Source: Alloactinosynnema sp. L-07 (GTDB lineage Bacteria > Actinomycetota > Actinomycetes > Mycobacteriales > Pseudonocardiaceae). Taken from it: a stretch of DNA of 64,000 nt. The notes beneath the pieces are model-generated. The model was given only the letters and a program-made list of their open reading frames with translations. It had not been told where the DNA came from and did no database searches. The DNA is taken from contig NZ_LN850107.1 in assembly GCF_900070365.1 (NCBI RefSeq), forward strand, positions 3,720,001 to 3,784,000, in the 5' to 3' direction. Below are positions 30,453 through 34,185 of this stretch, one piece after another. The position numbers and the translations under genes are program-made. The stretch's first letter is position 1; each line of letters begins with the position of its first letter.

Positions 30453-32642
30453 TCACGGGATGACCCCAGCCGGTGTCCCGGTCTGGGTCAGTCCGGCCAG
30501 GGCCCGCGGCAAGGGGCCTTGGTGCAGGACGCCGAGGCGCTGGGTGGCTCGGGTGAGGGCGACGTAGAGCTCGGCGGCGCCGCGGGGACCGTCGGCCAAG
30601 ATCCGTTCCGGATCCACGACCAGGACGGCGTCGAACTCCAGGCCCTTGGTCTCCGACGCGGGCACCGTGCCCGGCACACCCGGTGGCCCGATCACGACGC
30701 TGGTGCCTTCGCGACCGGCTTCGTCCCGCACGAACTCCTCGATGGCGTCGGGCAGGTCGTCGGCGGTGACCCGCCTGGACCACGGCTGGACACCGCACGC
30801 GCGGACCGACTCCGGTGGCTGGACCCCGGGTGCGAACTCGGCGAGCAGGGCGGCGGCGACGGCCATGATCTCCGCCGGGGTGCGGTAGTTCACCGTCAGC
30901 GACCGGTAGACCCAGCGGCCGGGCACATACGGCTCCAGCATCGTGTCCCACGACCTGGCCCCGGCCGCCGAGCGGCGTTGGGCGAGGTCGCCGACCACCG
31001 TGAACGACCGACCAGGGCAGCGCCGCATCAGCACCCTCCAGTCCATTTCGGACAGTTCCTGGGCCTCGTCGACGACGACGTGCCGGTAGGTCCAATCCCG
31101 GTCCGCCAAAGCACGTTCGACCAGATCTCGGGTGTCCTGTTCGACGAAGCGGGCCGCCAGGTCCTCGGCGTAGAGCAGGTCCGTGGCGAACAGGTGGTCC
31201 TCGTCGTCCATCGAGTCCTCGCGGCCGACGAGGTTGTCCAGCACGCCTGTCGCGTGCTGGATGGCGGCCTTCCGCTCCTGCTCGGCGGCCTGGTCGACCG
31301 CCGTGTCGCGACCCAGGAGGTCGACCAGCTCGTCCAGCAGTGGCACGTCCGACACCGTCCACGCGTCGCCGTCCGCGCGCGACAAAGCCGGGTCCGCACC
31401 GGCCGCGCTCAGCCGGTCGGGCGACATGTAGAGCGGTGCCAGCAGTGTCTCCGGCGTCAGTACCGGCCAGAGTTCGTCGAGCGCGGCGGCGAACCCGTCG
31501 TCGTCGGCGAGTTCCTTGACCAGGTCCGCCCGCATCTCCTCCCACGCCTTGCGGTCGTCCCTGGTCAGCCAGCCCCGGCCGATCCGGCCTATCGCCCGCT
31601 CGGTGAGCACCCACGTGACGATCTCGGTGAACTTCGCGCGGGCCTCGTTGTGGGGCAGGCCGCTCGCGCGCGCCTCCTCCCTGGCCCACTCCGCGGTCTC
31701 GGCGTCGATCCGCACCGTGACGCCCGCCAACTCGATCGACACCGGCCGCTCCGGCAGCCGCTGCCGGTCGGCGACCGCCGCCGCGAGCACGTCGAGGATC
31801 TTCAAAGAGCCCTTGAGCCGCGCGATCTCCGGGGTGTCCTCAGCGGTGACGCTCAGGCCGGGCACGAGGTCCCCGGTGGTCACGAACACCACATCGGACT
31901 CGCCGAGCGACGGCAGCACACGGCCGATGTGGTTCAGGAAGGCCGGATTGGGCCCGACCACGAGCACGCCATGGCGTTCCATCCGCTCCCGCTGGGTGTA
32001 GAGCAGATACGCGACGCGGTGCAGCGCCACCACGGTCTTTCCGGTGCCCGGGCCGCCCTCGATCACCAGCACGCCAGGGTGGTCGAGCCGGATGATCTCG
32101 TCCTGCTCGGCCTGGATCGTCGCCACGATGTCGCGCATCCCGTCGCCGCGCGGCGCGTTGACCGCGGCGAGCAACGCGGCGTCGCCCCGCTCGTCGCCGT
32201 CCGGGCGGCCGAGCACCTCGTCGGTGAAGTCGAGCACCTGCCGCCCGCGGGTGTGGAACTGGCGGCGCCTGCGCATGTTCTCCGGGGACGCGGCGGTGGC
32301 GACGTAGAACGCGCGCGACGCGGGCGCCCGCCAGTCGAGCAACACCGGTTCGTACTCGTTGGCCTCGTCGAAAAGACCGATGCGGCCGATGTAGGAGTGT
32401 TCCCCGGAAAGCGTGTCCAACCGGCCGAAGCACAGCCCGTTGTCCCCCAGGTCCAGTCGCTTCACCTCCTTGGCCGACGCGCGCACCTGGTCGTCGCGTT
32501 CCATGGGGGTCCCGCCGGTTCCGCGCAACGCCGCGGTGTACTCGCCCTTCACCCGCGCGCGCTCGGCATCGAGCCGCGTGTAGAGCCCGGCGACATAGCC
32601 CCGCTCGGACCGCAGTTCCTCGTCGTACCCCTGAATTGACAC
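30453..32642 (-). CDS. helR: HelR-type RNA polymerase recycling ATPase (HelD family)
   Basis: A 729-residue UvrD-like superfamily 1 ATPase of the HelD group. An N-terminal coiled coil (residues 5-65, SERGYVAGLYTRLDAERARVKGEY) is followed by Walker A GGPGTGKT at 196-203, VVVDEAQELSEMDW (motif II) and a C-terminal ETKGLEFDAVLVVDPE...LYVALTRA helicase half. Class II HelD/HelR proteins strip RNA polymerase from DNA and displace rifamycins. The RAE-like palindrome upstream supports HelR specifically. GTG 32640-32642 has GAGGGGGA upstream; a TTG 12 bases earlier is in frame but lacks one. The symbol rests on family plus upstream element. Confidence 0.82.
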   Translation of the reverse strand: MSIQGYDEELRSERGYVAGLYTRLDAERARVKGEYTAALRGTGGTPMERDDQVRASAKEVKRLDLGDNGLCFGRLDTLSGEHSYIGRIGLFDEANEYEPVLLDWRAPASRAFYVATAASPENMRRRRQFHTRGRQVLDFTDEVLGRPDGDERGDAALLAAVNAPRGDGMRDIVATIQAEQDEIIRLDHPGVLVIEGGPGTGKTVVALHRVAYLLYTQRERMERHGVLVVGPNPAFLNHIGRVLPSLGESDVVFVTTGDLVPGLSVTAEDTPEIARLKGSLKILDVLAAAVADRQRLPERPVSIELAGVTVRIDAETAEWAREEARASGLPHNEARAKFTEIVTWVLTERAIGRIGRGWLTRDDRKAWEEMRADLVKELADDDGFAAALDELWPVLTPETLLAPLYMSPDRLSAAGADPALSRADGDAWTVSDVPLLDELVDLLGRDTAVDQAAEQERKAAIQHATGVLDNLVGREDSMDDEDHLFATDLLYAEDLAARFVEQDTRDLVERALADRDWTYRHVVVDEAQELSEMDWRVLMRRCPGRSFTVVGDLAQRRSAAGARSWDTMLEPYVPGRWVYRSLTVNYRTPAEIMAVAAALLAEFAPGVQPPESVRACGVQPWSRRVTADDLPDAIEEFVRDEAGREGTSVVIGPPGVPGTVPASETKGLEFDAVLVVDPERILADGPRGAAELYVALTRATQRLGVLHQGPLPRALAGLTQTGTPAGVIP

Positions 32643-33090
32643 GTTCCCCCTCAAAGCGATGTACCTGTTGACACTGCCGCGTCGAGCAACAGCCTCGCCG
32701 CCACCGTTGTCCCGTCGCCGCGGATCCAGCCGGCCAAGACAACACCCGCACTCAGCGACTCCCCGTTTCCGCGGATCCTGCCTACGGCGAGCGATTCTGC
32801 GGCACGACCGGGGCCTTGCCGCAAGCCCCCAGGTGCGCTATATGTTGGAGTGGGAAGGAGCGGTGTCCCCCTTCCACCATCTCAGCGGTGATCCGGCCCG
32901 GCGGCGTAGACTGTGCGCGGGCGAGGTTCTGCGCCTGACCTTCTGATCGGGAGTCCACGCCTCCCGGCACCGCGGAGGCAAAGGGGATGGGTGTCCTCAG
33001 GACCGGCTTCCGGCCGAACTGTCGACTCCGCTCGCGGGGTGCCCGGACGCGACGCGTGGAGTCCGTCGGTGTGCCCCCGGAGGAACGACG
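32643..33090. other. 448-base divergent intergenic region (helR / BtrH-like gene)
   Basis: It holds the RAE-like element (32811-32829) and two near-identical 17-mers (32711-32727 and 32762-32778, 15 of 17 bases equal) on the helR side. On the other side is a hairpin-forming GTGGGAAGG/CCTTCCAC pair (about 32850-32874). A TAGACT -10-like hexamer (32907-32912) could serve the rightward gene. No convincing gene is seen. Confidence 0.6.
32811..32829 (-). promoter_or_regulatory. Rifamycin-associated element (RAE)-like palindrome
   Basis: GGGCCTTGCCGCAAGCCCC matches the published 19-bp RAE inverted repeat (GGGGCTTGCGGCAAGCCCC, read on the other strand) at 18 of 19 positions; the core CTTGC-n-GCAAG is intact. 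It ends 168 bases upstream of the helR start. In Streptomyces this element precedes rifamycin-induced genes, including helR and rifamycin-modifying enzymes. Position and match are seen directly; the consensus is recalled from the literature. Confidence 0.8.
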
Positions 33091-34185
33091 ATGACTCGGC
33101 AGAAGAACCTCAAGGCCCTGGTCCGCGACCGAATGGCGCGCACCGGCGAGACCTACACCACCGCCCGCAGGCACGTCACCGCGCACGCGGCCGAACCCGG
33201 CACCCACGCGCCGTCCACCCTGGTCCGCGACCTGCTGGCCCGCGCGGGCGTGGTCGCCCCGCACACCGGGGAACCGTTCACCGAGGCGATGCTCGCCGGG
33301 CTCGGCGGCGGGATCGGCTTCCTGTACGCGGTGTTCGAGTACAAGGGCTACCCCCACCCGACGATGACGATCGTCGCCCAGCACCACCCGGACCCGTTCG
33401 TCCCGGCGATCCTGGACCGGCTCGGCTGCGTCACCGAGGCGACCACGACCACCAGCGCCAAGGTCGCCGACCGCAGGCTCGCCGCGGCACTGGCCGCCAA
33501 CCTTCCCCTTGTGTCCACAGTGGACCGATCAGCGCTGCCATGGCTCCCCCAGGTCGATCCGGCCTTCGGCGACCCATACCCGGTGTCGGTGGTCGCCGCC
33601 GACGACGACACCGTCCACTTCGGGGACGGCCACTCGCTGCCGCGCGCGGAGTTCGCGGCGGGATGGGCAGGCAGGCACAAGCACGCCATGCTGACCGTCA
33701 CCGGCACCCCGACCGCCGACCTGCCGGACGCGATCCGGTCCGCCGTCGCCACGACCGTCGGCCACCTGACCGGTCCGGTCCTCGGCCATTCCTTCGACAC
33801 CAACTTCGGCCTGTCCGGCATGGACCGCCTCGCCGACGCGCTCGGCGACCGCACCGGCCGCAAGGGCTGGACCAGGCTGTTCGCCACGAGCACCGAGTGG
33901 GTGCTGAACCGACTCCACGACTGCCTCGAACGCGAGTACACCGCCCCCGGCGCGACCCGCCCGCTGTACGCCGACTTCCTGGCCGAGGCGGCACCGGTCG
34001 TCGGCGAGGCTCGATACACCGAGGCGGCCGATCTCTACCGAGCGGCGGGTGCGCGGTGGTCCGCCGTGGCGACCCGCGCGCTCGGGTCGGCCGACGGCGC
34101 GTTCGCGGACCTGCACGCCCTGGTCGAACCGGCGATAGCCCTCGAACGAGAAGCGGTCGCCGTACTCCGGGGTCGGCCCAGCTAG
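33091..34185 (+). CDS. BtrH N-terminal-like / DUF4872 family protein
   Basis: A 364-residue cytoplasmic protein. The N-terminus MTRQKNLKALVRDRMARTGETYTTARRHV is typical of actinomycete BtrH/DUF4872-like proteins. It is followed by a papain-like BtrH fold region (EAMLAGLGGGIGFLYAVFEYKG, LPLVSTVDR) and a helical DUF4872 part. BtrH of butirosin synthesis transfers an acyl chain from a carrier protein, but there is no biosynthetic cluster here, so the substrate is unknown. The canonical catalytic Cys is not evident at the GGGIGF position. ATG 33091 follows GGAGGAAC. Divergent from helR; ends at a strong bidirectional hairpin. Confidence 0.7.
   Translation: MTRQKNLKALVRDRMARTGETYTTARRHVTAHAAEPGTHAPSTLVRDLLARAGVVAPHTGEPFTEAMLAGLGGGIGFLYAVFEYKGYPHPTMTIVAQHHPDPFVPAILDRLGCVTEATTTTSAKVADRRLAAALAANLPLVSTVDRSALPWLPQVDPAFGDPYPVSVVAADDDTVHFGDGHSLPRAEFAAGWAGRHKHAMLTVTGTPTADLPDAIRSAVATTVGHLTGPVLGHSFDTNFGLSGMDRLADALGDRTGRKGWTRLFATSTEWVLNRLHDCLEREYTAPGATRPLYADFLAEAAPVVGEARYTEAADLYRAAGARWSAVATRALGSADGAFADLHALVEPAIALEREAVAVLRGRPS

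Follow-up and report, generated by a model that had tools for sequence, protein, structure and literature searches.

The rifamycin-associated element (RAE) reportedly lies 5′ of rifamycin-resistance genes in actinobacteria, a placement that Spanogiannopoulos 2014, Surette 2022 and Hurst-Hess 2022 are said to describe. The same location is given in the available portions of three further sources (PMC10719064, PMC8655204, PMC12802891), which present the RAE as a palindromic site that a transcription factor may bind, set among sense promoters. For Mycobacterium smegmatis, the accessible part of one report describes two sense promoters, the start site of the first, P1, being located approximately 20 bp upstream of the RAE (PMC10719064). 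How rifamycins are sensed via the RAE in actinobacteria still awaits elucidation, according to the part at hand of a paper from 2026 (PMC12802891). The same part describes a dominant antisense promoter in Bacillus subtilis, with a 19-bp spacer, that keeps helD low until rifampicin is present (PMC12802891).

The window that we analyzed, i.e. the whole stretch of 64,000 nucleotides under study, corresponds to C1:3720001-3784000 in the 7.4-Mb, single-contig genome of Alloactinosynnema sp. L-07. It carries the 19-bp palindrome GGGNCTTGCNGCAAGNCCC of the RAE at 32811-32829, where the gene-sense (minus) strand, read from 32829 to 32811, is GGGGCTTGCGGCAAGGCCC. The palindrome lies 5′ of a rifamycin-resistance gene, 168 bp before the start codon of helR; over 84 helR sites with the center G on the gene's strand, this distance has a median of 153.5 bp and a range of 42-666 bp. 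The palindrome and its distance to a HelD/HelR gene, as given in a preliminary description that placed it on the plus strand, are real. With zero mismatches, GGGGCTTGCGGCAAGGCCC agrees with what we take to be the published consensus, the letters of which in turn agree with our survey. In that survey it was a common variant (25 of the 102 helR sites), the commonest being GGGGCTTGCGGCAAGACCC (35/102). When up to three mismatches were allowed, the window contained this one site only, matching on both strands, against an average of 0.05 in 100 shuffles.

A search of the whole genome, with up to three mismatches and with a looser pattern, uncovered one more clear RAE and no third. This second element (C1:2210955-2210973) is located 57 bp 5′ of a gene, 456 residues of whose product matched the rifampin monooxygenase profile NF033145 with 904 bits (cut-off 800). 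The earlier view that helR would be a lone RAE gene was therefore abandoned, as the rox gene of the same genome has an RAE too. In the same genome, the single RpoB locus found by our search (C1:5243397-5243666) displays the unusual motif DVHHSHYG. Each of the 16 genus members searched shares it, in contrast to the DVHPSHYG of most relatives from the order. Four of these 16 (G004, G007, G012 and G013) carry FMQQTNPVDGL versus FMDQTNPVAGL here; the D-to-Q exchange in these four concerns what is presumably a rifampicin-resistance site.

The helR gene (30453-32642, minus strand) encodes a class II HelD/HelR RNA polymerase recycling ATPase of 729 residues. It starts with a GTG codon at 32642, just 5′ of which GAGGGGGAAC includes the Shine-Dalgarno-like GAGGGGG. 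The proposed membership of the HelD/HelR family was borne out, since the product exceeded the cut-offs of two NCBIfam profiles, HelD_MYCSM (NF041465; 1454 bits over the full length, cut-off 1051) and HelR_2 (NF041258; 1400 bits, cut-off 1100), and matched M. smegmatis HelD (6YXU) with 1192 bits in phmmer. Furthermore, the motif DWRAP was found at residue 103, a Walker A motif at 196 and the tip of the primary-channel (PCh) loop, MDDEDHL, at 478. In the alignment with the characterized protein, the acidic tip residues are conserved, E481/D482 being equivalent to E484/D485 of M. smegmatis HelD, and the latter matter for rifampicin resistance as far as the available portion of the report shows (PMC10719064). 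In its full-length match, DWRAP, Walker A and the ED pair of the PCh-loop tip, the protein resembles both M. smegmatis HelD and M. abscessus HelR, and with no notable difference from this class it is an ordinary member. Two further HelD-like genes in the genome encode products with 51% and 41% identity to that of helR, and the 51%-identical paralogue (L036) has EDDA--DPDIL at the place of MDDEDHL. By analogy to published relatives, described in the accessible part of PMC10719064, rifamycin-induced protection of RNA polymerase, with HelR displacing the drug, is the expected role of helR. The RAE and helR together are a resistance unit of an already known kind.

To place this site among its relatives, we scanned named genomes for the RAE pattern, obtaining at least 119 stretches. 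The pattern GGGNCTTGCGGCAAGNCCC matched in 68/197 genomes of the class and in 95/150 genomes of the family, with one match of the reversed control in each case. Among the matches listed, 312 distinct RAE sites were drawn, for which 120 loci were added, 63 of them from the family survey. Each site was assigned to a gene family by tblastn, for which every family was represented by a single reference protein, and 298 of the 312 sites proved to precede helR (104), rox (92), rgt (64), rph (26) or arr (12). Some of the helR matches at 33-40% identity come from a second HelR clade, to which L010, the one locus subjected to a profile search, matched with 822 bits (cut-off 750). Among the 14 other sites, a HelR start is located downstream of the site in L080 and, by eye, L095 shows a similar N-terminus; L088 and L062 precede transporter genes (see below); L059 retains just a C-terminal HelR remnant and L310 a broken rgt. 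No gene was found at L066, and too little room was left at L081, L100, L107 and L172. Three of the 14 sites outside these families (L096, L122 and L127) are without module flanks and are probably chance matches.

For an alignment, 295 sites remained after removal of the 14 without a family and of three assigned ones too close to an end. When these were aligned on the RAE in the sense of the gene, every family showed ungapped conservation between approximately −32 and +46, with the consensus TCCCTgCCACTTTCAACgTATAGCGCACCGG-[RAE]-CGGTcgTGCCGCAGAATCgcCGGCC. Accordingly, one block is common to five unrelated resistance-gene families, arr deviating most. The constancy of the 19-mer itself is an effect of site selection. 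The conservation of the flanks is not, because the sites were chosen by the 19-mer alone; seven of the 295 sites had a flank score below 10 and are possibly due to chance. At our locus the whole module spans 32784-32861 on the minus strand. A blastn search with 86 bases of the window (32780-32865) returned 36 plasmid records, 33 of which cover at least 80% of the query, and in the two records that we examined the block is followed by rph and a glycosyltransferase gene. The locus shares with the known RAE its 19-bp palindrome, its place 5′ of a rifamycin-resistance gene and its targets helR and rox. Unlike in the published picture, however, the palindrome here sits at the center of a directional block that is about 80 bp long and has a conserved half resembling an antisense promoter. 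We conclude from the alignment that the conserved unit resembles two promoters, of which the 19-bp palindrome makes up only the middle.

The promoter-like features of this block are arranged with strict spacing. Upstream of the RAE, A at −17, T at −13 and A at −12 occur together in 288/295 sites; downstream, A at 32 and T at 36 occur in 292/295; and both sets are found at the exact spacing in 287/295, whereas at other offsets the upstream pattern appeared in at most six sites and the downstream pattern in at most 63. A32 and T36 correspond to a sense −10 of the form CANNNT, 19 bp from the TTGCGG in the RAE. On the opposite strand, A−17, T−13 and A−12 read as TANNNT, likewise 19 bp from an RAE hexamer, in this case TTGCCG. 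The two −10s are equidistant from the RAE dyad. In the window, the putative sense promoter, PS, would comprise the −35-like TTGCGG (32819-32824) and the −10-like CAGAAT (32794-32799) on the minus strand, with a predicted start near 32787. The putative antisense promoter, PA, would comprise TTGCCG (32816-32821) and TATGTT (32841-32846) on the plus strand. Within the antisense −10, the inner letters change freely from site to site (TACGTT, TAAGTT, TATGTT, TAAAAT and TAACCT), as is expected for a true −10. Moreover, when the 11-letter core was left free, TTG was retained on both strands in 117/117 sites among the matches listed, and letter 9 or 11 varied in 12 of these 117 (both by eye). The two halves differ in that T at −12 of the promoter is present in 288/295 sites for PA and in 3/295 for PS. 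TANNNT is understood to be a stronger −10 than VANNNT. The portion at hand of a study on M. smegmatis transcription start sites names ANNNT as the consensus of the −10 and sets the activities of TANNNT and VANNNT against each other; helD is not named in its main text (PMC6448022). Altogether, we lean toward the view that PS and PA, both of which we infer from the pattern of conserved letters, stand back to back and have their −35 region in common, the two −35 boxes overlapping within the RAE.

A tandem arrangement would account for the upstream letters in a different manner. Here, two sense promoters would flank the RAE, with P1 upstream and the −35 of P2 in the RAE, and the upstream letters would belong to P1 rather than to an antisense promoter. 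This would fit the pair of sense promoters that the available part of PMC10719064 reports for M. smegmatis, as well as L338, a locus encoding a protein 96% identical to M. smegmatis HelD, in which TACCCT on the sense strand (−32 to −27) would suit the P1 start. However, such a −10 is not general, as A at −31 is present in 3% of the 295 sites, while the near-invariant −17, −13 and −12 yield TANNNT when read in the antisense direction. The sense TATAGC lacks the final T of a −10, C being found there in 96%, and it is changed in many mycobacteria, where A−10 is present in 6/22 modules. We consider the tandem arrangement improbable.

The mycobacterial loci were found via the HelR protein instead of the RAE. 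From the best 30 loci among 186 genomes with a match, 22 modules scoring above 15 were counted, and all 22 combine the antisense TANNNT with the sense CANNNT. Among the eight uncounted loci, L341, L351 and L364 look like weaker modules, the antisense TTG being lost in L364, and five are without a module. By eye, only part of the module seems to be left 5′ of helD in L343 and L365, and these sequence remnants suggest a decay of the element in some lineages. The sense TACCCT at −32 to −27 was observed in L338 and L339, where HelD is 95-96% identical to that of M. smegmatis; it fits the published P1 start and is absent from most RAE sites. In this protein-selected set the GGG/CCC arms of the RAE are retained as well, letters 1-3, 17 and 18 being kept in 21-22 of the 22 modules and letter 19 in 12.

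Conservation of these arms goes beyond the need of two −35 boxes and therefore suits a dimeric DNA-binding protein. A rifamycin-responsive transcription factor could bind the RAE as a dimer and control one or both promoters, PA being secondary or a by-product. The 19-bp dyad with arms conserved beyond the −35 core would suit such a factor, and the accessible portions of the literature propose one (PMC10719064, PMC12802891). By eye, a few sites, L144 among them, have TetR-like divergent genes on their antisense side (clusters of four and two sites), and one plasmid copy has HTH/TetR-like genes in its neighborhood. On the other hand, with 298 of the 312 sites preceding five resistance families, no regulator family stands out among the adjacent genes as an RAE target. 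A symmetric protein site would explain neither the equidistant −10s nor the asymmetry between TANNNT and CANNNT. In addition, at L146 a module with both −35s and both −10s (L146:7627-7645) precedes an arr gene (227 bits, cut-off 130) on a contig assigned to an uncultured Xanthomonadaceae by its label alone, where an actinobacterial regulator would be unexpected; the neighboring genes on this contig were named by family only. We give such a factor somewhat less than an even chance.

The view of the RAE as a simple symmetric palindrome was discarded, as letter 4 is G in 201/295 sites and letter 16 a purine in 271/295. These two letters also bear on the idea that the RAE acts as an RNA hairpin, i.e. 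an attenuator, in the helR leader. The sense strand does give a folding signal (mean z −1.31 for 150 of the 295 sites), as any palindrome would, but at the free pair of the palindrome (letters 4 and 16) standard pairing is possible in just 73/295 sites. Furthermore, the predicted start of PS is located downstream of the RAE, so that the PS transcript would not contain it. Rfam gave no match in 32000-34000. Mutual information over the block ranked mostly near neighbors highest, with long-range z values of 5.4 (−44/−33) and 5.0 (−10/23), and disclosed no helix across the RAE. The attenuator was rejected because letters 4 and 16 seldom pair, and we regard it as very improbable.

A hairpin was instead encountered on the antisense side. 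The predicted PA start, seven bases past the −10, coincides with RAE position −24, where the sense strand has C in 96% of the sites (93% at −25). In the mycobacterial set this GG start is not conserved, being found in 10/22 at −24 and in 9/22 at −25. In the window, the predicted antisense RNA would start near 32853 with a hairpin GGAAGG...CCTTCC of six perfect pairs (32853-32875, plus strand), and no U-tract follows it. Stems of at least six pairs were detected in 117/295 sites, compared to 10 in shuffles and a mean of 38.7 (maximum 48) in a swap control, for which the left part was taken from another site of the same family. The end of the stem was most often at −24 (71 of these 117), and 178/295 sites, including all but two of the 12 arr sites, are without a stem of six pairs. 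Over the ten bases past the stems of at least six pairs, the antisense U fraction was 0.30-0.64, while the corresponding positions in 138 sites whose stems have at most four pairs gave 0.19-0.26; at the first three places it amounted to 0.61, 0.64 and 0.55, versus 0.21-0.24 in these 138 control sites. Antisense RNA from −24 was also more stable than its shuffles, with a mean z of −1.58 compared to −0.08 for a control region (150 of the 295 sites). Judging by these base patterns, the hairpin and the U-rich stretch probably terminate the antisense RNA early. Alternatively, the hairpin may shield the promoter against transcription of genes upstream. In the window, a BtrH_N/DUF4872 protein gene (33091-34185, plus strand) is divergent from helR, and PA points at this gene, its predicted start being 238 bp away.

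As PS and PA share their −35 region, a polymerase at one should exclude a polymerase at the other. With its CANNNT −10, PS would be weak and read helR, while PA, with its TANNNT −10, would be strong and at many sites yield a transcript whose very first bases already belong to a terminator-like hairpin. PA would normally hold the site, keeping polymerase off PS. Tentatively, rifamycin would hasten the exit of a polymerase lingering at PA, whereupon drug-free polymerase could reach PS; the sensor would then be the drug target itself, RNA polymerase. Plain promoter competition was rejected, since a model with the same drug-bound fraction at both promoters gave no induction (at most 1.0-fold in 200,000 random settings). 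The switch consequently needs an added assumption, namely a slow exit from PA that is speeded by the drug. That induction is unattainable by plain competition also favors a transcription factor. In a toy model of unplugging with arbitrary numbers, induction reached up to about 16-fold, and when drug-bound polymerase left no faster, output fell. Unplugging of PA by rifamycin is accordingly a conjecture, which the model says could work. That the RAE is not primarily a regulator site, and that a polymerase plugging PS from PA senses the rifamycin by which it is unplugged, is a possibility we put forward as rather unlikely by itself; an RAE-binding protein is about as likely as the unplugging of PA.

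The proposed switch can be compared with the helD/pps alarm of B. subtilis, as described in the available portion of PMC12802891. There, as in the arrangement predicted here, the gene is preceded by a sense promoter and a counteracting antisense promoter with a 19-bp spacer, and B. subtilis makes a short antisense RNA with putative terminators. In B. subtilis, however, the promoters are face to face with 39 bp between the starts, and both are occupied in the model, whereas here they would be back to back, with a shared −35 region, and are expected to be mutually exclusive. The convergent geometry of a B. subtilis-type alarm is not found at the RAE, where the putative pair is divergent.

The long block also drew attention to transporters. 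In Actinoplanes aureus, an RAE module is located about 140 bp before a gene for a DHA2-type MFS exporter (L088:116-1797), whose scores do not reach the curated cut-off of any family shown (OtrB-like, 218 bits; EmrB, 212 of 230 bits). In genome G112, a drrA-type ABC transporter gene (L062:379-1305; 338 bits, cut-off 312) that is followed by a drrB-like stretch has a module about 195 bp 5′ of it. From their position, the exporter is a possible new RAE target and the drrA-type transporter possibly another.

The RAE and HelR were known already; what is new is the anatomy, with the palindrome as the center of a putative paired-promoter block. The predicted conserved antisense promoter is not mentioned in the accessible portions of PMC10719064 and PMC12802891; Spanogiannopoulos 2014, Surette 2022 or Hurst-Hess 2022 may already describe an antisense start or a block of this length. 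The opposed promoter pair around the RAE may be the way in which rifamycin is sensed, and a conserved antisense promoter with defined coordinates makes sensing by the RAE directly testable. The long block also provides a more specific search model for rifamycin-responsive genes than the 19-mer, with two transporters already indicated. If the proposed switch is true, one cassette would serve before five unrelated resistance genes with no need for a dedicated regulator, and two distant bacterial groups would sense the same drug by promoter pairs of different geometries.
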